Source of the DNA: Clostridiales bacterium
Lineage (GTDB): Bacteria > Bacillota > Clostridia > Saccharofermentanales > Saccharofermentanaceae
Assembly: GCA_017617525.1 (NCBI GenBank)
Contig: JAFZWA010000006.1
Location: 124,001 to 188,000 of the forward strand
Length of the DNA: 64,000 nt
Direction of reading: 5' to 3'
Shown: positions 3,710-54,689 of the stretch, piece by piece
How the letters are laid out: each line of letters opens with the position of its first letter
How positions within the stretch are numbered: the first letter of the stretch is position 1
The notes under the pieces: generated by a model
What the model was told of the DNA's origin: nothing
What the model saw: the letters and a program-made list of their open reading frames with translations, nothing else
The model's database searches: none
Program-made: the position numbers and the translations under genes

Positions 3710-4311
3710 CTTCTGTCCTCCACGCTATAGCCATCGACAAGACCGGACTTAATACCCTTTTTGTATGGCCCGACAAATCGAAGGAGCAACAAGATCGGGA
3801 TCGCAGCGATCACGTTGACCAGGATCTGCGGGAAAATGCTTGATAACAGTATATACCTGATCGAATGGTACGAGGCGATATTTCTGGACATTTTCAAATA
3901 GAGCCATGAAAGGATATGACCGAGCGAGTAATACATCGCCGATACCATGGCAACCTGAACGAGTCCCAGAGTGTACTTTCTTCTAAATCTCGTACGAAAC
4001 AGGATCGATGACAGAATACCGACATAAAGGAACGCTAAAAGGCCGATACCAAGAACGGCAACAGGCGCATTGTTCATACCGGTAATAACCGGGCCGGAAA
4101 AATAATCGCGGAGCATTCCGACCAAAAGGCCGACTACGATACCGTCGATCGTACCAAAAAGATATCCGGAAAGCACTACGAATACGAGCATCAGATCACA
4201 CGTGCGGCCGAAAAAGCCAAAAACATGCGGAAATGTAACCTGCAGACAGCAGACGCTCGTAATATATACGGCATATAAAATGATCTGTCTCGCGCGTTCC
4301 TTCTTATTCAT
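3694..4311 (-). CDS. mreD: rod shape-determining protein MreD
   Basis: A 205-residue, very hydrophobic protein with about five membrane segments, matching MreD in size and character. MreD is an integral membrane part of the elongasome that works with MreC and PBP2. Its ATG overlaps the mreC stop in an ATGA arrangement and its own end overlaps pbp2 by 16 nt, so the three are translationally coupled. MreD sequences diverge strongly; the call rests on size, topology and its place between mreC and pbp2. Confidence 0.88.
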   Translation of the reverse strand: MNKKERARQIILYAVYITSVCCLQVTFPHVFGFFGRTCDLMLVFVVLSGYLFGTIDGIVVGLLVGMLRDYFSGPVITGMNNAPVAVLGIGLLAFLYVGILSSILFRTRFRRKYTLGLVQVAMVSAMYYSLGHILSWLYLKMSRNIASYHSIRYILLSSIFPQILVNVIAAIPILLLLRFVGPYKKGIKSGLVDGYSVEDRRWQKI

Positions 4312-5306
4312 CAGGCAGCCTCTCCTGGGGTTTCGGGAGCGGTATCGGCCGATGTTTCAGAAGAAGGCGTTGTCTCAGGAGCAGCAGTTTCAAGAGATGT
4401 ACCGGAAGGATCCTCGACCATCTCAGAAGATGTCGGATCTTTTGCGGATTCCTGTGTCGGATCCGTATCCTCATTCGGAACCATGATGAATACATCTTTG
4501 ATATCGGAAATTACGGCATAAGGACGCAATGTAGCCTTCAGGTCGTTCGGATCAGAATCATCGAACGATTCGATGACGCCGATCGGAATACCTGCCGGAA
4601 ACAGTCCTCCCTCACCGCTTGTAACGAGTTCCTGTCCCGGCTTGAGTATGATATTACTCGGTATTCTCGTGACGACACATAATCCTTCGCTCTTTAATGT
4701 AATATCACCGGAAACCAAAACGGTAGCGCCATTTACTTCATTGACCTTCGCGCTTACGGTAAATCCTTCGTGCAGCAACGGAAGGATCTTGGAAGAATCC
4801 TTATCGGTGGTCATTACACGACCGACAAGATTCATTCGCGCGTCAACGACCGCGTATGAACCCGTGGATGAATCAATACCTGAATCCGTGCCGACATTAA
4901 CACGGATAACACTGAACCATTCGTCGGCTTCTCTTGTAAGAACGGAAGCACCGTGAATGTGGTAGTTTTCGAATGAATCCTGGATACTGAAAGCACTCTT
5001 GAGTTCTTCCCAGCGGATACGAGCCTCTTCACCCTGCTGTACTTCGTACTCCAACTCGGCGATCTCTGCTCGAAGCTCTTCATTTTCCTTTCGGATCTCC
5101 ATACCTTCCGCGATCGCAGAATAGAAGTCAGAAATCTTGGTACCGATCTTCTGGAATACGGACTGGATCGGATCGACTATAATGGAAATAGGCTTTGTTG
5201 CGCCGGAAAGAGGACTTCCCGGGATCGCGCTGAGGACGATAAAAGCGATCAATAGCAATGTCGCAAGCGCGAGCACAAGCAACTTATTATCGAACAATCG
5301 TCTCAT
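4311..5306 (-). CDS. mreC: rod shape-determining protein MreC
   Basis: A 331-residue bitopic membrane protein: membrane segment at about residues 8-27, an extracellular coiled coil (about 55-95), then the beta-rich MreC domain with the typical repeat of VVDARMNLVGRV and ELVTSGEGGLFPAGIPIG. It scaffolds PBP2 and the cell-wall elongation machinery. The ATG at 5306 has GGAGG 8 nt upstream; a GTG five codons earlier overlaps that site and is rejected. The last 55 or so residues are a Ser/Thr/Pro/Glu-rich tail that goes beyond the usual MreC domain. Confidence 0.93.
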   Translation of the reverse strand: MRRLFDNKLLVLALATLLLIAFIVLSAIPGSPLSGATKPISIIVDPIQSVFQKIGTKISDFYSAIAEGMEIRKENEELRAEIAELEYEVQQGEEARIRWEELKSAFSIQDSFENYHIHGASVLTREADEWFSVIRVNVGTDSGIDSSTGSYAVVDARMNLVGRVMTTDKDSSKILPLLHEGFTVSAKVNEVNGATVLVSGDITLKSEGLCVVTRIPSNIILKPGQELVTSGEGGLFPAGIPIGVIESFDDSDPNDLKATLRPYAVISDIKDVFIMVPNEDTDPTQESAKDPTSSEMVEDPSGTSLETAAPETTPSSETSADTAPETPGEAA

Positions 5307-45830: not shown

Positions 45831-48284
45831 TCATTCCAGACCGTACTTCTCTTTTACGATTTCATCCGGCTCATACCCGTCCAGATATTCATCTGCCATC
45901 GACAAGATCTCGTCGCAGGAGATCGGATGAAAGATATACTGATAAACCGGATCGTCGTAGTTTTCAACATGTGTCTTTACTACCGGGTCTTTTGACTCCT
46001 CATCAAAGCCTGCTAAATATACATTTTCTACCCTGTAGATATTCCGAAACTCTGAATCGTATACTTCCAGATCATCGGCGCTGATATAGTAGCAGTCACG
46101 CTTTTCGTCATAGCAGAAAGAAGTGATGTATCCGAACAATCCGTAGATCGCCTTGACCCGCTCTCCTGTGGATCGATCATAGATATAGACCGTCCCGTCA
46201 AAAAGATGGATCAGGCCAAGATCCGCATTCTGACAAAGAATGGAACCTTTCATTCTTTCCTCAACGTTATCCTCCTCTTTTTGGAGAGCAAGATCAAGGA
46301 ACTTGTCTTTCTCGGGGGAATCATAATAAGAATCATAATCCACTTCTTCAAATATTCCCGAATATGTCTGAATAAGGCTGGATTCACGTTTCTGAAATGA
46401 ATATATGTGGTTATCTCCTATGTAGGCAAGGAAAAGTGTTCCGTCGCAATAGTCTTCGACATACGAATTTGCACCTTCGGAGATTTCCGGAGCAACATAA
46501 GAATACTCTCCGTTGCTTATCCGATGATAACCGCCGCTATCAAACAAGAGTATCTCGTCTTTTTTGATCAATGCGGGTCCGACATAGCTTTTTCGCGGAT
46601 ACTCGGCCAGGAGATTAAGATCAAGGTCATATAACCATATCGTGTTATCATCAGAGGCAACGACATCTCCGCCATTCACATATACACTTGTCAAAGGAGA
46701 ATCCACCCATATTTCCTTAGGATCTCCACCGGAATGGACATCTTTCAGAAAGAGGTAATTATCGTATCCGTCTACACGCGTCCATACCATATAATTCCCA
46801 TCGGTATATAGATCATAGACAGAATTATTATTCGGAATTGTGATCTCTTCAGTGTTACCGGTTGCCACATCGACCTTGAAGAAATAGGTTAACGGATAAT
46901 CATTGACCCGGACAAAAGCCTCATTTCCATCAGAAGAAAAGAAAACAGCCATATCATAACGGTCAATATCAGAAGAGATCTGAATCTTCGGATCAAAGCT
47001 GCTGGCAAACACACTTCCTCTGAAAAACTCAATACGATCAGGAGAGATCAGAGCATACCCATTTCCCATCTGATCATAGGTTGCTTTTCCTTCATTGACC
47101 AGAAGATCTGTCTCAATACGAGTCTTCAGATCGAAATAACGGAAACTCTCACCGACTCTTTGAAAAATGAATCCGCTGTCTCCGTCAAAAGCATAACTGT
47201 ATACTCCTGTCTCGAAATCGAGCAGCACTTCTCCCGAGCTCAGATCAAGAACATAAGCTCTATTGTCCCAGCCATGAACCACAGAGAATCCGCCGAACGG
47301 CGACACGGCAAATGAATAGAGAGAAGTCGGAATAACGATATCACCATCACAAGAGAAAGAATCCGGCGGATCATAAATGCCGAGAGCTTTTACAAGAGCC
47401 TGCATCGCAAGTTCACTGAATTCATTCGTATTATCATCAGGAAAACCGAGTCTTGCCGCGTATACAGATGCTTTTCGATTACCGTCACGAAGAATGACTG
47501 CGGATGTCTGGGCAAGAGAATCCGCGTATTTCTGCTGTATGGTATTCTTCTGCTCTTCGATCTCATCCTTTTGCGCTTGAAGTTCATCCTGCTGTCTTTT
47601 GATCTGCGCCTTCTGATTGGAAATACGGATAATGAAGAAAACACAGACGGCAATGATCGCCAGAAGAACACCGAAAGCAGCGAGAACACGGTTTCTTGCA
47701 CGGTTATATGCTTCTTTTCTGTGTCTCTGCGCAAGCTCTTCGTAAGGAATGCCCATGATCCCCGATACAAGACGGATCACGGCGTTATCGGTCTTCACTT
47801 TTCTCTCTTTTGGAGAATCTGCTCTGCAGTCTGCTGCCAGAGGCTCTTTGTACTGCCTGAATTTTTGAGGATGTCCGTCAGGTCCCATCTGGAAGATCTC
47901 TTCATACAGCAATACTTCTGGAAATGCCGTATCCGGTTCGCCATCCGCAAGGACTAAAAGGATATGTTTTCTGTCATTGAATCGAAGAAAAGCTTCGATC
48001 TCTTTCATGCACCAGACGGATTCCAGATACGCGGGAGAACAGACACAGATCAGGTATTTCGATTCCCAGATCGCTGTCGTGATCACGTCAGACAGATCAT
48101 CGGCAACGGAAAGCTCCGTTTCATCACGAAATATCCGAAGAGGGCGTTTCTTACCGATCTTTTCGGTGATCGCCTTCGGAAGTCGGAAATTCTCGAGTTT
48201 TTTCTGAAGTTGCTGCGCTATCTCGCTGTCCGGCTGACAATGACGATAACTGATAAACGCGTCGAACCGAAACCTTTTCCCCAT
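45831..48284 (-). CDS. TIR domain - transmembrane - beta-propeller receptor-like protein
   Basis: An 817-residue protein. The TIR domain at residues about 6-130 has FDAFISYRH (7-15), RIFRDETELS (50-59), ICVCSP (79-84) and SVWCMKEIEAF (89-99); Glu95 after Trp91 is in the place of the catalytic Glu of TIR NADases. A membrane segment at about 198-220 is followed by a charged coiled coil (KAQIKRQQDELQAQKDEIEE) and then about 520 residues of repeated beta strands with VLDLSSGEVL, YDLDLNLLAEY and IYDRSTGERV, a likely WD40/PQQ-like beta-propeller. The TIR part would be in the cytosol and the propeller outside. Own promoter, GGGGAG 7 nt before the ATG. Could signal or act in defence; no partner gene is adjacent. 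Confidence 0.83.
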   Translation of the reverse strand: MGKRFRFDAFISYRHCQPDSEIAQQLQKKLENFRLPKAITEKIGKKRPLRIFRDETELSVADDLSDVITTAIWESKYLICVCSPAYLESVWCMKEIEAFLRFNDRKHILLVLADGEPDTAFPEVLLYEEIFQMGPDGHPQKFRQYKEPLAADCRADSPKERKVKTDNAVIRLVSGIMGIPYEELAQRHRKEAYNRARNRVLAAFGVLLAIIAVCVFFIIRISNQKAQIKRQQDELQAQKDEIEEQKNTIQQKYADSLAQTSAVILRDGNRKASVYAARLGFPDDNTNEFSELAMQALVKALGIYDPPDSFSCDGDIVIPTSLYSFAVSPFGGFSVVHGWDNRAYVLDLSSGEVLLDFETGVYSYAFDGDSGFIFQRVGESFRYFDLKTRIETDLLVNEGKATYDQMGNGYALISPDRIEFFRGSVFASSFDPKIQISSDIDRYDMAVFFSSDGNEAFVRVNDYPLTYFFKVDVATGNTEEITIPNNNSVYDLYTDGNYMVWTRVDGYDNYLFLKDVHSGGDPKEIWVDSPLTSVYVNGGDVVASDDNTIWLYDLDLNLLAEYPRKSYVGPALIKKDEILLFDSGGYHRISNGEYSYVAPEISEGANSYVEDYCDGTLFLAYIGDNHIYSFQKRESSLIQTYSGIFEEVDYDSYYDSPEKDKFLDLALQKEEDNVEERMKGSILCQNADLGLIHLFDGTVYIYDRSTGERVKAIYGLFGYITSFCYDEKRDCYYISADDLEVYDSEFRNIYRVENVYLAGFDEESKDPVVKTHVENYDDPVYQYIFHPISCDEILSMADEYLDGYEPDEIVKEKYGLE

Positions 48285-48317
48285 GTTACACTCCCCAATG
48301 TGCCCAATGCCTCTTAC

Positions 48318-48345
48318 ATTTTAACATTCGAGGAACTTATTGCAA
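48318..48345 (-). promoter_or_regulatory. promoter of the TIR gene
   Basis: Minus strand TTGCAA (48345-48340), 16-nt spacer, TAAAAT (48323-48318) with TG-n in front. It lies directly behind the hydG stop, so the TIR gene can be expressed apart from hydG. Confidence 0.65.
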
Positions 48346-48360
48346 CAAGACAGCCTTGGA

Positions 48361-49809
48361 TCAAAAGCGGAAATCGCGGCTGTTGGAATTCTTGATCTCT
48401 TCGATATGCTTTGCGCAGATCTCACGGACATTATCCTTCGGGATCTTGGCAAGTTCCTTTTCGATCAGTGCCCAACCGACCTTCTTCGTATCCTCGGAAG
48501 CATAGTCAACGAGGAATTCGGCAAGCGTCATCAGCGCGTTCGGATGGCAGCAGTTCAGGATCTGACCGCTCTTGCAAAGGCTCATGAAACGGTCGCCCGT
48601 TCTGCCTTCACGATAGCAGGCGGTGCAGAAAGACGGCACGTGATCTGTCTCCATCAGCCATCTTACGACTTCGTCGAGAGTTCTCTGGTCGGAAACATCG
48701 AACTGTTCCGTATCCGTCGGACGCTCTTCTTCGGTATAGCCGCCGACAGAAGTTCTGCTGGCGCCGCTGATCTGGGAAATACCCATCTTCAGCGCCTTTT
48801 CACGAACCTGCTGGCTCTCACGTGTAGAAATGATCATACCTGTGTACGGAACTGCCAGACGGATGCAGGCGATGATCTTTTCGAATGTCTGATCGTCGAT
48901 ACCGCCGTCAAACTCGTTCGGATCGATATCATCTGCGCGCTTTACACGCGGTACGCTGATCGTATGCGGGCCAACGCCATGTACGGCTTCCAGATGCTCC
49001 GCATGCATGATCAGTCCGGCAAACTCATACTTATAAAGCTCCAGACCGAAAAGCACTCCCAGTCCGACGTCATCGATACCGCCCTCCATAGCGCGGTCCA
49101 TAGCCTCGGTGTGGTAGTTGTAATCGTGCTTCGGTCCTGTCGGATGAAGTTTCAGATAGCTGTCCTTGTGATATGTTTCCTGGAACAGGATATATGTGCC
49201 GATACCGGCCTCTTTCAGTTTTCTGTAGTTCTCAACTGTCGTCGCGGCGATATTGACGTTAACTCTTCGGATGTCACCGTTCTTGTGATGTACGCTGTAG
49301 ATCGTGTTGATGCACTCGAGAATGTACTCGATCGGGTTGTTCTTCGGATCCTCACCGGCCTCGATCGCCAGTCTCTTGTGTCCCATATCCTGAAGAGCAA
49401 TAACTTCCTGACGCACTTCTTCCTGGGTGAGTTTCTTTCTCGGGATCGACTTGTTCTTCGCGTGATACGGGCAGTACAGACATCCGTTGATGCAGTAGTT
49501 GGAGAGATAAAGCGGCGCGAAAAGCACTATTCTGTTACCGTAGTAAGCCTGCTTGATCTCTTCAGCGATCTCGAACATCTTCTTGATTCGTTCCGGATCT
49601 TCACAGGCCAGCAGCACAGACGCCTCTCTGTGGGTCAAAGCCGTACCGTGCTCAGCTGCCTGAAGATTACCCGGGCGAGCCTTTTCAAGGATCGCATCGA
49701 TCAGTTCGAAGTTGTTCTTATTTGCTTCGGCGTATGCCAGTGTTTCTTTGATTTCTTCATCATTGATAAACTCGTCGGCGATCAATGATTTCGGGTCATA
49801 CTTATACAT
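48361..49809 (-). CDS. hydG: [FeFe]-hydrogenase maturase HydG
   Basis: A 482-residue radical SAM tyrosine lyase that makes the CO and CN ligands of the hydrogenase H-cluster. The radical SAM cluster motif is CINGCLYC (CX3CX2C) and the C-terminal auxiliary cluster motif is CX2CX22C, starting FCTACYREGRTGDRF and ending in LNCCHP, which separates HydG from its relative ThiH. AAAGGA lies 8 nt before the ATG. It follows the TM1266-like gene by 19 nt. HydE, HydF and the hydrogenase are not in this window. Confidence 0.96.
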   Translation of the reverse strand: MYKYDPKSLIADEFINDEEIKETLAYAEANKNNFELIDAILEKARPGNLQAAEHGTALTHREASVLLACEDPERIKKMFEIAEEIKQAYYGNRIVLFAPLYLSNYCINGCLYCPYHAKNKSIPRKKLTQEEVRQEVIALQDMGHKRLAIEAGEDPKNNPIEYILECINTIYSVHHKNGDIRRVNVNIAATTVENYRKLKEAGIGTYILFQETYHKDSYLKLHPTGPKHDYNYHTEAMDRAMEGGIDDVGLGVLFGLELYKYEFAGLIMHAEHLEAVHGVGPHTISVPRVKRADDIDPNEFDGGIDDQTFEKIIACIRLAVPYTGMIISTRESQQVREKALKMGISQISGASRTSVGGYTEEERPTDTEQFDVSDQRTLDEVVRWLMETDHVPSFCTACYREGRTGDRFMSLCKSGQILNCCHPNALMTLAEFLVDYASEDTKKVGWALIEKELAKIPKDNVREICAKHIEEIKNSNSRDFRF

Positions 49810-49828
49810 GTGTTTTTTCCTTTCTATT

Positions 49829-50080
49829 TCAATCCTTTACGGCAGAATAAGTTGTTTTTACGCTGATGTTCGGAAGATTTCCGATCTTACCGGAAAGTGT
49901 GGCAATATCGTCCTGCGGAGCATCGATCACCACGCTGATGATGTTGATCTTTCTGTCTCTGTATGGGATGCCCATTCTTCCCACGATATACTGTCCGTAT
50001 TCGTGAAGAAGGCTATTGAGTGCATTCGTATCCCCGTTCTCTTCGACGATCACGCTGATCACAGCTACACGGTTTTCCAT
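49829..50080 (-). CDS. TM1266 family iron-only hydrogenase system regulator
   Basis: An 83-residue ACT/NikR-C-like protein of the TM1266 type: VAVISVIVEENGDTNALNSL, the IVGRMGIPYRDRKINIISVV core and the DDIATLSGKIGNLPNISVK end. The family is regularly found next to hydE/hydF/hydG and is named a putative regulator; the molecular mechanism is unknown. There is no DNA-binding domain visible. GGGGAG lies 7 nt before the ATG, which begins one base after the stop of a possible 22-codon leader frame. Confidence 0.88.
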   Translation of the reverse strand: MENRVAVISVIVEENGDTNALNSLLHEYGQYIVGRMGIPYRDRKINIISVVIDAPQDDIATLSGKIGNLPNISVKTTYSAVKD

Positions 50081-50232
50081 TTCAGATCTCCCCTTTAAAC
50101 AAAAAAATCACGCCAAAAGGCGTGAATAAACATAAGCACAGAAATATCATATAAGATATACACCTTGCTATCAGCAGTTATTCCGCTTCCCCTTAGGCAA
50201 GTCAATTATAGAACACAAGGTGTTTTTGTCAA
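50081..50232 (-). promoter_or_regulatory. promoter and attenuator-like leader of the TM1266-hydG operon
   Basis: Minus strand TTGACA (50232-50227), 16-nt spacer holding AACAC-CTT-GTGTT, and perfect TATAAT (50210-50205). The leader of about 118 nt contains a small hairpin (AGCGG/CTGCT, about 50187-50173), a terminator TCACGCC/GGCGTGA (50125-50108) with a seven-T run (50107-50101), then the ribosome site. The segment AAGGTGT (50166-50160) can pair with ACGCCTT (50123-50117), which would break the terminator. No gene lies upstream on this strand, so the terminator must act in cis on hydG. No known riboswitch class was recognised. Confidence 0.7.
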
Positions 50233-50252
50233 TACATGTGCATATATATAAA
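50226..50252 (+). promoter_or_regulatory. candidate argH promoter overlapping the hydG promoter
   Basis: TTGTCA (50226-50231), 15-nt spacer, TATAAA (50247-50252). Its -35 shares bases with the -35 of the divergent hydG promoter. The AT-rich stretch 50236-50257 is an imperfect palindrome (ATGT to ACAT) that could be an ArgR site, but this is uncertain. Confidence 0.4.
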
Positions 50253-50315
50253 TACATAGTGCCTGTAATTGTGGTATCATTAACCAGTAAATCGAGATAA
50301 AGGCAGGGATCACAT

Positions 50316-51683
50316 ATGGCGAAGAAAATGTGGGCAGGAAGATTTGAGAAAGCGACTGATAAGGCAGTTAACGATTTTAACTCGTCTCTTCCCTTTGACT
50401 GCAGAATGTATAAGCAGGATATCGAGGGTTCTGTAGCCCATAGTCAGATGCTTGCCAAGCAGGGCATCATCTCTCAGGAAGATGCCGATAAGATCAAAGA
50501 AGGACTTCTTTCCATTCTTGACGATATCGATTCCGGAAAGCTGACTTTCGATTCGGATGCCGAAGATATCCATATGTTCGTTGAGGAAGAGCTCACCAAC
50601 AGGATCGGCGACGCAGGAAAGCGTCTGCACACAGGCAGATCCAGAAATGACCAGGTCGCTCTCGACCAGCGTCTCTACGCTGTTGACGAAGCCAAAGAAG
50701 TTCAGTCTCTTCTCGGTCAGCTCCGCGATACTCTCATTGACATTGCAAAAGAAAATACACAGACATATATGCCTGGTTACACACACCTTCAGCGCGCGCA
50801 GCCCATTACTTTTGCGCACTATCTCATGGCCTACATCCAGATGTTCGGCCGTGACATGGATCGTCTCGACGAAGCGATCGCTAGAACAAACATCTCTCCT
50901 TTAGGATCCGGCGCTCTTGCGGGAACCACATATCCTCTGGATCGTGAGTTCGTTGCCGAGCAGCTGGGCATGAAGGGCGTAACTCTCAATTCACTCGACG
51001 GCGTAGCCGACAGAGACTGGGCGATCGAACTTGCATCCTTCGCTTCTCTTGTCATGATGCATCTTTCGCGTCTTTCGGAAGAGATCATCCTCTACTCCTC
51101 TCAGGAGTTTAAATTCATCGAACTCGATGACGCGTATTCGACCGGCTCTTCCATGATGCCGCAGAAAAAGAACCCGGATGTTGCTGAGCTTACACGTGGT
51201 AAGACCGGTCGTGTCTATGGCGACCTCATTTCCCTGCTCGTTACCATGAAGGGACTTCCGCTTACGTACAACAAGGACATGCAGGAAGTTCAGGAGGCGC
51301 TTTTCGATGTGATCGATACACTTAAGGGCGTGCTCGTTCCGTTCACCGGCATGATCAAGACCATGAAGATCCGAAAAGAGAATATGGAAAAAGCGGCTCT
51401 CGGCGGCTTTACCAACGCGACAGACCTCGCTGATTACCTGGTAAGAAAGGGTATCCCGTTCAGATCCACGCATGAGATCTCCGGCAAACTTGTTCACTAC
51501 TGCATCGAGCATGAAACGACTCTCGAGAAGCTCTCTCTTGAAGAGTTTAAGCAGTTCTCCGACCTGATCGAAGAAGATGTTTACGACGCGATCTCCCTTG
51601 AGACCTGCGTCAACAAGAGGACCATCATCGGCGCTCCGGCTCCGGAGACAGTAAAGAACGCGTTGGATTCACTTTCCGAGTGA
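50316..51683 (+). CDS. argH: argininosuccinate lyase
   Basis: A 455-residue member of the fumarase/aspartase superfamily that splits argininosuccinate to arginine and fumarate. Signature GSSMMPQKKNPD (catalytic Ser loop), HTGRSRNDQVALD and YTHLQRAQPITFAHY (catalytic His region) are complete. AGGG lies 8 nt before the ATG. Same strand as argG but separate from it; own upstream promoter and downstream terminator. Confidence 0.96.
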   Translation: MAKKMWAGRFEKATDKAVNDFNSSLPFDCRMYKQDIEGSVAHSQMLAKQGIISQEDADKIKEGLLSILDDIDSGKLTFDSDAEDIHMFVEEELTNRIGDAGKRLHTGRSRNDQVALDQRLYAVDEAKEVQSLLGQLRDTLIDIAKENTQTYMPGYTHLQRAQPITFAHYLMAYIQMFGRDMDRLDEAIARTNISPLGSGALAGTTYPLDREFVAEQLGMKGVTLNSLDGVADRDWAIELASFASLVMMHLSRLSEEIILYSSQEFKFIELDDAYSTGSSMMPQKKNPDVAELTRGKTGRVYGDLISLLVTMKGLPLTYNKDMQEVQEALFDVIDTLKGVLVPFTGMIKTMKIRKENMEKAALGGFTNATDLADYLVRKGIPFRSTHEISGKLVHYCIEHETTLEKLSLEEFKQFSDLIEEDVYDAISLETCVNKRTIIGAPAPETVKNALDSLSE

Positions 51684-51709
51684 TCATTGATATATCGCTT
51701 TCAAAAAGA

Positions 51710-51748
51710 AAAAGACTCGACGCCGATATGACGCCGAGTCTTTTCTTT
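51710..51748. terminator. bidirectional terminator between argH and the zinc-ribbon membrane gene
   Basis: AAAAGACTCG (51710-51719) pairs with CGAGTCTTTT (51735-51744) over a 15-base loop, T-rich after the stem on the plus strand and after the A-run on the minus strand. It serves the two convergent genes. Confidence 0.85.
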
Positions 51749-51763
51749 TAACAAAATCGCAGA

Positions 51764-52552
51764 TCAGTTATTCTCTTTTTTCACCGCTTCCGCTCTCTGC
51801 TTGGCAAGTGCCGCGAAACGCTTTTCTCCACAACGGCAGATCGTCATTGTTTTCGGATTGATGTTTCCGCATGTGCATTTCCATGCGTCCTCAGTTACTC
51901 GGATCAGTTTGTCCATGTCGCTCTTTTTGTTCGTGGTTTCAGGAACAAAATCCGGCGCTGACGGATCAGGCGGAGTTGCCCACTTCCAAAGAATGCTTTC
52001 GTCAGTATAAGCACTTGTTTCAAAATATGTACGGACTCTCACGGAACTTGTATAATACAGGCCCCAGATAAAGTAAGCACCAAGAACGGAAATGATGCTT
52101 GTGATCGTTTTTGTCTGATCGAAGAGTCCGATAACGCGAGCAATGATCACAGATACAAGTGTCAGGATCATCGTGATCTCAAACGTTTTCAGGAAAGTGA
52201 CCTCACGATTGATGACATCCTTAACATACTTGATCTCAAAGACAGTAATAAGTCCGGTCATCATAATATAAAGATAACCGACGATCTTGATCGAATCATC
52301 AAAATCCGCATCCGCTTCATAAGAGTTGAGCAATGAAAACCACTGCAAGCAAAGAGCGATCATACCGATGATCCCGATGATGCTGCAAACAACGGTAAAC
52401 AGAAGGATTCCGCCAAGTTCTTTATACTCAGGATGAGCAGCTACGGAGACTTTTTTCCCCGCGGAGCTCTGCGACGAATTGATCTTGCATCCGCAATTGG
52501 CGCAGGAACGGCTTGATTCCGGAACAAATTCATTACACTTTGGACAATACAT
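51764..52552 (-). CDS. membrane protein with zinc ribbons at both ends
   Basis: A 262-residue protein. Residues 3-22 form a zinc ribbon (CPKC and CANC), then four membrane segments (about 47-70, 88-107, 122-143, 150-170) and a cytosolic C terminus with a second Cys set (CTCGNINPKTMTICRCG near 228-244) and a basic helix. The membrane part is reminiscent of DUF2569-type proteins but I cannot name the family. GGAGG lies 8 nt before the ATG. Alone on its strand, divergent from the GGDEF gene. Confidence 0.68.
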   Translation of the reverse strand: MYCPKCNEFVPESSRSCANCGCKINSSQSSAGKKVSVAAHPEYKELGGILLFTVVCSIIGIIGMIALCLQWFSLLNSYEADADFDDSIKIVGYLYIMMTGLITVFEIKYVKDVINREVTFLKTFEITMILTLVSVIIARVIGLFDQTKTITSIISVLGAYFIWGLYYTSSVRVRTYFETSAYTDESILWKWATPPDPSAPDFVPETTNKKSDMDKLIRVTEDAWKCTCGNINPKTMTICRCGEKRFAALAKQRAEAVKKENN

Positions 52553-52742
52553 AATACCAACCTCCTAACACAGTTATTCCCTTAACCCTCTTTCATGATA
52601 CACAATTATTCCCTGCCATTACATGGCGCAGATAAACCCGTGGAGCATATCTATAACCATTCCCGAAAACCCTATAAATCCGCTATTTCTCTAAAAGGTT
52701 CGATATGACCGATTTTTGATAATAGCACCGTAGAATAAGACA

Positions 52743-52751
52743 TGTTATAAT
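52743..52751 (+). promoter_or_regulatory. extended -10 promoter of the sensor/GGDEF gene
   Basis: TGTTATAAT: perfect TATAAT (52746-52751) with the TG-n extension, 42 nt before the start. No -35 at proper distance. The rest of the 241-nt gap 52553-52793 is AT-rich with nothing else I can name. Confidence 0.6.
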
Positions 52752-52793
52752 CGCAATATAACAGCACGGCGAACAACATGGAGGTAATTTACT

Positions 52794-54689
52794 TTGGCAC
52801 GCAAGAAGCTCGGTGTATTCATGAGTGAGATCACCCAGTTCTTCCAGCAGGCCTGCGGCAAAGCGATCATTGATCTTGCTTCGCTTCGGGATATGGATGT
52901 TGTTGTGTTTGCCTCTTACGGTTCCTACACTTCTCCATATGGCCGAAACCTCCTTTCTGAGATCGGAAAGAAAAACATCATTCATCTTCCGGACTACTCT
53001 TCTCTGGATGCGATCATTGCCATGCCAAGCACTTTTGATATTGCAGGAATGGATGATGAGTTCTATGAACTCGTCTGTGAAAACGCCAAATGCCCCGTGA
53101 TCTGTCTTCAGACAGGAAGAGACGACTTCTATACGATCTCCATCGACAATCACGCTTCCATGTACCAGATGACGCGTCACTTCATTGACGAGCATCATTT
53201 CACTGATATCTGCTATATGTCAGGACCGTTCCAGGCCAAGGACTCTCCTGACCGCCTGCGTGGATTTGTTGACGCGATGAGAGATGGCGGTGTCGCGATG
53301 CAGCCGAACTCCATCTACGAAGGGAACTACTGGCGCAACCGCGGTCAGAAAGCCGTTGATTTCTTTATGCAGGAAAGGCGCTCCTATCCGCAGGCCATTA
53401 TCTGCGCAAACGACTATATGGCTCTTTCCATCTGTGATGAACTGAAAGAACGAGGAATACGAGTTCCTGAAGATGTCTGTGTATGCGGTTTTGACGGAAT
53501 CCAGGAAGGAAAAGACGCGATCCCTTCTCTTACCACTGTTCAGATCACACCGGAAAAGTACGCCGAAGCGGCTTTTCAGATCATTGACGATCTGAAAGCA
53601 GGAAAGAAAGTCGACAAGAAGATCACTTTGACTGATGAGATCTATTACCGCGCAAGCTGCGGATGCGGAAAGCAGTTCATCTGCGGCAACGTTGACGAGA
53701 TCTATCATTCGCTTGCCGAAAAAGAGTTCCTGCTTCGTGAATCCGGCCGTATCACAGCTGACTACCAGAACAATTTTGATATCGACACATGTCTTTCCGT
53801 CGCGAATTACTACTTCCATACGCTGGGCTGCGAACGCGGATTTATTTGCCTTTGCGATGATTCAGACGATCTCTTCTCTTCAGAAGAAGATACCGCTTTT
53901 TCCGAGAAAATGTTCCTGCTTCAGATAATGAACAAGAATGACCGTATGCACGGAGAAGCTCCCAATGAGCTTTTCCCGAGGAAAGACATTCTTCCGAAAG
54001 ATATCTTTGAGACCGAAGAACCCGGGATCTATATCGTTATCCCGCTCTTTTTCAAGAACAAAGATTACGGCTACATCGTATTGAATCCTCAGAAAGATCA
54101 ATGGCCGAATTCACTGACGATCACCTATGTCAGTGCTCTTTCCTCTTCGATCGAGAGCTGCTTCTATGAAAAGAAGTTCAGCGCGGTCAAAGAGATCACA
54201 AAGCTGTCCAGAACCGATGAGCTCACAGGTCTATACAACCGCCGCGGTTTTGAAAACGCGCTTCAGGATCTTCTTAAGAATACGCCCGATGATTACACGA
54301 TCAGCATTGCCAGCATCGATATGGATAACTTAAAGACCATAAACGATGTCTACGGTCACTCAGACGGTGACTTCGCGCTGGCTTCTATTTCACGAGTCCT
54401 TCAGGATTGTCTGAAAGAAAATGAATTCTGCGCGAGATTCGGCGGTGACGAATTCTCTGCTGTTCTGGTCGCCAAAGAAAAGTCACGCGCTCAGGAATAC
54501 ATAGACAAAGTCACTTCAGAACTGGAAAGAGTTTCCAAAGAATCCGGAAAACCATACTCCCTGCACGTCAGTATCGGCGCAAGCAGGCTCGCCGGAAGAG
54601 ACACCTCCAACATCGTTAACTGTATGAGAGAAGCTGACGAACAGATGTATCAGAAAAAGAGAGCGTATAAAAAGGAAGGAAACGAGTAA
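52794..54689 (+). CDS. cytosolic LacI-type sensor domain fused to GGDEF diguanylate cyclase
   Basis: A 631-residue protein without signal peptide or membrane segment. Residues about 1-290 are the periplasmic-binding-like ligand domain of LacI/GalR regulators (KLGVFMSEITQFFQQA, IDNHASMYQMTRHFID, ICANDYMALSICDELKERG, VCGFDG) but the DNA-binding helix-turn-helix is missing. A GAF-like middle part follows, then GGDEF (TDELTGLYNRRGFE near 478, ARFGGDEF near 547-554), which makes c-di-GMP. The inhibitory RxxD site before GGDEF reads KENE, so feedback inhibition is probably lost. Start is TTG at 52794, 9 nt after GGAGG; an ATG nine codons later lacks a site. Ligand unknown, perhaps a sugar. Confidence 0.88.
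   Translation: MARKKLGVFMSEITQFFQQACGKAIIDLASLRDMDVVVFASYGSYTSPYGRNLLSEIGKKNIIHLPDYSSLDAIIAMPSTFDIAGMDDEFYELVCENAKCPVICLQTGRDDFYTISIDNHASMYQMTRHFIDEHHFTDICYMSGPFQAKDSPDRLRGFVDAMRDGGVAMQPNSIYEGNYWRNRGQKAVDFFMQERRSYPQAIICANDYMALSICDELKERGIRVPEDVCVCGFDGIQEGKDAIPSLTTVQITPEKYAEAAFQIIDDLKAGKKVDKKITLTDEIYYRASCGCGKQFICGNVDEIYHSLAEKEFLLRESGRITADYQNNFDIDTCLSVANYYFHTLGCERGFICLCDDSDDLFSSEEDTAFSEKMFLLQIMNKNDRMHGEAPNELFPRKDILPKDIFETEEPGIYIVIPLFFKNKDYGYIVLNPQKDQWPNSLTITYVSALSSSIESCFYEKKFSAVKEITKLSRTDELTGLYNRRGFENALQDLLKNTPDDYTISIASIDMDNLKTINDVYGHSDGDFALASISRVLQDCLKENEFCARFGGDEFSAVLVAKEKSRAQEYIDKVTSELERVSKESGKPYSLHVSIGASRLAGRDTSNIVNCMREADEQMYQKKRAYKKEGNE

Follow-up and report, generated by a model that had tools for sequence, protein, structure and literature searches.

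Two kinds of described leader come closest to the RNA element reported here: terminator-type riboswitches, built from an aptamer P1 helix, an antiterminator, and a terminator, and the attenuators of the PyrR, TRAP, and HutP type. For the maturation of [FeFe]-hydrogenase, no control at the RNA level is described in the literature that we searched. C. thermocellum hydG and an adjoining putative regulator gene are listed with Rex-linked predicted binding sites (PMC8457756). Ammonia-lyases supply the dithiomethylamine ligand, and their genes associate with hyd genes, according to a J Biol Chem 2024 paper (PMC11736057).

The leader analyzed here is part of the window, a 64,000-nucleotide stretch of DNA from a Clostridiales bacterium. 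It is sited between the divergent argH (50316, plus strand) and a minus-strand operon that begins with a TM1266 family gene and hydG. NCBIfam models identify both proteins, TM1266 and HydG, securely; TM1266 matches TIGR03959 with 111 bits against a cut-off of 60.8. Directly downstream of hydG, the same strand (45831–48284) encodes an 817-amino acid protein with an N-terminal TIR-like domain (weak match to the FxsC N terminus). No second copy of the leader occurs elsewhere in the host genome assembly (2.47 Mb, 64 contigs).

Reading the sequence alone, an earlier reader (the sequence-only reading) had proposed a near-consensus promoter, a leader of about 118 nt, a terminator with a seven-T run, and pairing over seven bases between AAGGTGT and the first terminator arm. 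All four features are found. The promoter, TTGACA-16-TATAAT, is the best promoter site and the sole 12/12 match in a scan of 5 kb (48000–53000). The transcript most likely starts exactly at P1, with G50198, 7 nt past the −10 hexamer, as the predicted +1; the leader from there to the TM1266 ATG (50080) measures 118 nt. It reads GCCUAAGGGGAAGCGGAAUAACUGCUGAUAGCAAGGUGU past the promoter and TCACGCCUUUUGGCGUGAUUUUUUU farther downstream. The terminator has the sequence TCACGCC-TTTT-GGCGTGA followed by seven T, and AAGGTGT (50166–50160) pairs with ACGCCTT (50123–50117) in a run of 7 bp that includes a single G-U pair. No rival 10-mer in the leader matches the terminator arm as well. The features are collected in Table 1.

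Table 1. Features of the leader and of the first genes under it (positions in the window)
Feature	Position	Strand	Basis or remark
Sigma-70-type promoter (−35 TTGACA 50232–50227, 16-nt spacer, −10 TATAAT 50210–50205)	50205–50232	−	12/12 consensus matches; both hexamers invariant in 12 species, spacer 8/16
P1, 5′ strand GCCU	50195–50198	−	RNAalifold of 12 genus leaders; first nucleotide is the predicted start
7×7 internal loop, 5′ side AAGGGGA	50188–50194	−	GA-P2-GA at the equivalent place in relatives; window without Watson-Crick P2
P3 hairpin AGCGG-AAUAA-CUGCU	50173–50187	−	RNAalifold; third pair covaries C-G/U-A/A-U across relatives
7×7 internal loop, 3′ side GAUAGCA	50166–50172	−	GA step and the A preceding AGG conserved among relatives
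P1, 3′ strand AGGU	50162–50165	−	CCU/AGG pairs invariant in alignment A6
Antiterminator strand AAGGUGU	50160–50166	−	overlaps P1 3′ strand; 7-bp pairing with terminator arm
Intrinsic terminator (hairpin 50125–50108, T run 50107–50101)	50101–50125	−	hairpin retained in aligned genus leaders
22-codon frame	50082–50150	−	judged not functional (ATG in 3/12 species, full frame in 2)
TM1266 family gene, first under the leader	49829–50080	−	TIGR03959 above cut-off; structure of a relative on record (2nzc)
hydG, H-cluster radical SAM maturase	48361–49809	−	TIGR03955, 909 bits

Within the genus, the leader was compared in 12 species, the window's own genome counted. RNAalifold on the transcribed part of these 12 leaders returns P1 (GCCU/AGGU), the 7×7 purine-rich loop, P3 (AGCGG/CUGCU), and the terminator. 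In the alignment, 34 of the 36 core positions are invariant (94%), as are 15/39 between core and terminator and 0/20 past the T run. Conservation among relatives, on which the sequence-only reading had staked its proposal beforehand, is thus found in the core. The terminator arm varies (CGCC to CGUC or CGCU), with the hairpin and some pairing to AAGG kept. The antiterminator pairing spans 5–7 bp in nine genus leaders tested; in two of them (G004 and G008) the runs of 5 bp are no better than those of other 10-mers. Folding of the single window leader is modestly better than that of shuffles (z −2.2).

The promoter and the coding potential of the leader behave differently from this core. Both hexamers are invariant in the 12 species, and 8 of the 16 spacer positions are; a palindromic operator in the spacer was rejected on this ground. 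As had been noted, a 22-codon frame spans the terminator; it starts at 50150 rather than 50145. That its translation opens the terminator, making the leader a peptide-dependent attenuator, fits the span of the frame in the window but not its fate in the genus, where it is lost from most species and other frames encode no common peptide. Moreover, neither a Shine-Dalgarno sequence nor a regulatory codon run is visible, and we regard the probability of this explanation as close to negligible. Because the core is conserved and the frame and spacer are not, what the genus keeps is the RNA core rather than a peptide or a promoter operator. The same comparison bears on the idea that the terminator only damps or insulates, with a DNA-binding repressor such as Rex controlling the promoter. 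The listing of C. thermocellum hydG and its neighbor with Rex-linked sites speaks for such a repressor, whereas the contrast between spacer (8/16) and transcribed core (34/36) speaks against it, and an operator leaves paired covariation and antiterminator matching unexplained. Repressor control in place of RNA control is therefore very unlikely, but the two layers may coexist.

The wider element was sought among TM1266 leaders gathered from relatives and from the class Clostridia, oriented by gene. Many share the pattern CUGA-P2-RA-P3-loop-P3′-GA-P2′-AAGG, with a variable P3 loop. In an alignment of 36 leaders (A2), the covariation score is 0.564; shuffles give 0.222 ± 0.020, and sliding the pairing partners gives no more than 0.210. 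Both sides of P2 and P3 pairs change in many of the sequences, and RNAalifold recovers the same helices from the alignment alone. A set of 54 sequences from named genomes gives 0.411 versus 0.194. The aligned sequences were chosen by eye from the leaders, and the whole-genome scan is therefore the fairer test. A strict pattern search, which recovered ∼20 of 192 leaders including two false matches in coding sequence, was set aside and covariance models were used instead.

Model R1 was scanned blind to position over the whole genomes of 59 relatives and then over 292 Clostridia, and model R2 over 299 genomes of the phylum. From these scans, 54 of the 59 inspected matches lie upstream of TM1266, HydG, or AspA. 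The first recognized downstream gene is TM1266 at 45 places, HydG at 7, and aspartate ammonia-lyase at 2 (with HydF next in one); ten of the 59 places served as seeds of the models, and the others include some close kin of seeds. The remaining five comprise a match before an SsuCBA-like ABC transporter with its own terminator (L246), one at a contig end (L375), and three inside coding sequence, which were treated as false (L213, L262, and L374). The downstream proteins were named HydE, HydG, HydF, and AspA by NCBIfam, and this gene set points to H-cluster assembly. The finding that ammonia-lyases feed the dithiomethylamine ligand (PMC11736057) explains why AspA is seen near hyd genes. The covariance-model search of TM1266-hydG leaders that the sequence-only reading had suggested thus reveals a structured, covarying element in Clostridia, among whose matches the window leader itself is absent.

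Several features of the element's distribution were observed along the way. Tandem copies lie a few nucleotides apart at many loci (e.g. L118, L105, L114, L113, L106, L128, L144, L152, and L318). In L274, L290, L313, L316, L324, and L325, an extra copy is found ∼1.05 kb past TM1266 (near 4290–4385), apparently before HydG; a single cluster may thus be subject to control in two places. Weak but well-formed matches before TM1266 on contigs labeled Deltaproteobacteria and Victivallaceae (L332:2868–2918 and L336:2772–2838) suggest a spread beyond Bacillota. An SsuA/SsuC-like ABC transporter is linked to the element or to its TM1266 gene at L228, L241, L253, L254, L255, and L246; HydG was not found in several of these genomes. 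In L261 (541–586), the element and TM1266 are followed by a small membrane protein that resembles an ECF transporter S component and has no NCBIfam match.

How the window leader relates to this element depends on which of its parts are compared. With filters off, the best partial match of R1 reaches 5.2 bits, which is not significant, and R2 does not list the leader among its matches. Filing it under R1 or R2 was rejected, as the models do not find it. The leader lacks a Watson-Crick P2 between two GA-type steps and has the 7×7 loop AAGGGGA/GAUAGCA instead. It also reads CUAA in place of CUGA, as do clear members such as L163 and L307. On the other hand, it possesses P1 (CCU/AGG), P3 with GA on the 3′ side, the AAGG core, and 7 bp of pairing between AAGG and the 5′ arm of the terminator, and it is positioned 118 nt before TM1266-hydG.

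The two forms are bridged by intermediates. The leaders of the nearest named TM1266 relatives carry, right after a promoter, GACCUGAUGGGAAGCGG-aucau-CCGCUGAUGGCAAGGU (L265; 16.9 bits with R2) and GACCUGAGAGAAAGCGG-cacgg-CUGCUGACGGGAAGGU (L264; 16.7 bits), and L266, L272, and L025 provide further bridges. The arrangement P1, 7×7 purine-rich loop, P3, with ACCU or GCCU at the start and GCAAGGU at the end, recurs in all five of these independent relatives. The covariation of this subfamily is 0.188 versus 0.104, with P3 covarying among C-G, U-A, and A-U, and RNAalifold again yields P1 and P3. Model R3, made for the window/B subfamily, scores the window leader at 59.8 bits, a value that follows by construction from the window type in its seed. 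Sister species G001 of the same genus carries a canonical element (46 bits) before its own TM1266-HydG operon. Because of its location, P1 and P3, the AAGG core, the expression platform, the intermediates L264–L266, and the canonical copy in G001, the window leader was filed as a probable divergent relative, with strict membership unproven, in which P2 would be replaced by non-canonical purine pairs.

In the same genus, a second type of TM1266 operon was observed (L003, L007, and L010), in which an element with a 3-bp P2 precedes TM1266, and genes for an ABC permease (FecCD-like, iron-type) and for an ATPase come next. Some 2 kb downstream, a further TM1266-like match falls in a frame of 360–430 amino acids; this frame appears to be the ATPase, extended at its C terminus by a TM1266-like domain. 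The apparent fusion hints that the TM1266-like domain binds something carried by the transporter.

The window leader combines the conserved fold with a mutually exclusive expression platform: P1 and the antiterminator have the AAGG strand in common and, as AAGGU is shared, exclude each other. The same design is seen more widely. A terminator is detectable in 66 leaders, and in 45 of these AAGG pairs with its first arm better than do at least 95% of the other 10-mers of the same leader. This pairing extends over 8–10 bp in several leaders (L283, L291, L296, L302, and L266), and the bases past AAGG change in step with the terminator arm. The pairing was not found in L264 and L265, the closest relatives (3–4 bp). 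In HydG leaders such as L244, L251, and L252, the element ends 1–6 nt before the start codon with AAAGGA or AAGGAA, at or beside the Shine-Dalgarno sequence, which suggests translational control.

We propose that the leader is a cis-acting RNA switch that controls TM1266-hydG by premature transcription termination, with a probability of about 0.7. The RNA would fold right past its start into a small hairpin of P1, the purine-rich internal loop, and P3. With AAGGU held in P1, the terminator could form and the operon would be off; with P1 absent, AAGGU would pair with the first terminator arm, which would prevent termination and leave the operon on. A factor that stabilizes the hairpin would thus turn the operon off, and its absence would turn it on. 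From the anatomy we infer that the folded element is most likely the OFF state, in the window by termination, and that folding should mean OFF in both the terminator and the Shine-Dalgarno arrangements. The P1 of the window has four pairs only, one of them G-U. By computed energies, the terminated fold is favored even without a signal (−24.4 versus −17.4 kcal/mol); therefore, kinetics or a factor must decide. Taken together, the comparison supports well what had been proposed from the sequence, apart from its leader-peptide alternative: an unclassified attenuator that controls hydrogenase maturation at the RNA level.

The presumed signal is probably tied to H-cluster assembly, as a metal, a pathway intermediate, or a product. 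That it is bound directly by the RNA, as in a riboswitch, stands at close to even odds and is somewhat likelier than sensing via the TM1266 protein. We tentatively suggest, at slightly worse than even odds, that the element forms a widespread and so far undescribed class of riboswitch, one that directly senses a metal or a metabolite from H-cluster assembly and shuts off TM1266, HydE, HydG, AspA-HydF, and some transporters, the window genus having a natural P2-less variant, maybe with a different ligand.

The competing explanation, that TM1266 is itself an RNA-binding regulator, is possible, but we would bet against it. TM1266 would bind the hairpin in its own and in other hyd leaders and cause termination, in an autogenous loop like those of PyrR and TRAP. 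TIGR03959 indeed names the family a putative regulator, and the element is one hairpin whose internal loops are conserved and whose tip varies; its frequent tandem copies would suit an oligomeric protein. In HydG-positive Clostridia, R1 (E ≤ 0.01) detects the element in 52 of 147 genomes with TM1266 and in 1 of 42 without TM1266 (Fisher p = 4e-6), a difference confounded by ancestry and by the location of most copies before TM1266. Of 38 genomes that have TM1266 and lack HydG, 8 carry the element, which there often precedes an SsuA-like binding protein. Against TM1266 stand two HydG leaders with the element in incomplete assemblies where TM1266 was not found, G319 (R1, 32.5 bits) and G159 (R2, 23.4 bits); in addition, the literature searched holds no report of RNA binding by the family. 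HydG-positive, TM1266-negative genomes contain eight weak R2 places, only one of which (L381) precedes HydG, and the others look like noise. The arguments on both sides are limited by ancestry and assembly gaps.

No known class accounts for the leader. In agreement with the sequence-only reading, which could not match it to a known riboswitch, a scan of Rfam 15 (4227 families) gave no match at the gathering score and none under permissive search. The best sub-threshold families, L10_leader, tsr26, and Teg49, reach at most 17.9 bits (E = 1.6 or worse), below their cut-offs of 44, 141, and 186, and their likeness consists only of a generic 3′ hairpin and U run. Full-text literature on TM1266, hydG, or hydrogenase together with riboswitches, and the motif-discovery papers searched, contain no description of the element, which might appear as an unnamed supplement entry. 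The association of an ammonia-lyase with hyd genes in PMC11736057 matches the element's regulon, and the parts of that paper that were searched do not mention a regulatory RNA. An apparently undescribed element is widespread in Clostridia before TM1266, hydE, hydG, and aspA-hydF operons. A conserved RNA before H-cluster genes offers a handle on how cells sense demand for the cofactor or its excess, gives the uncharacterized TM1266 family a testable function, and flags transporters that share this control. Should the RNA itself bind the signal, the element would represent a riboswitch class new to science and might serve as a sensor in biohydrogen work.

With the PyrR, TRAP, and HutP attenuators, the element shares a simple hairpin with conserved internal loops and an autogenous position before a putative regulator gene. 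In contrast to them, it is also found before HydG and AspA, and TM1266 is not reported to bind RNA in the literature searched. From terminator-type riboswitches it differs as a single hairpin without junction or pseudoknot, whose ligand is only presumed. Similar to these riboswitches, however, it has a compact 5′ fold with a strand shared with the antiterminator, tandem copies, a terminator or Shine-Dalgarno platform, and the genes of a single pathway downstream.
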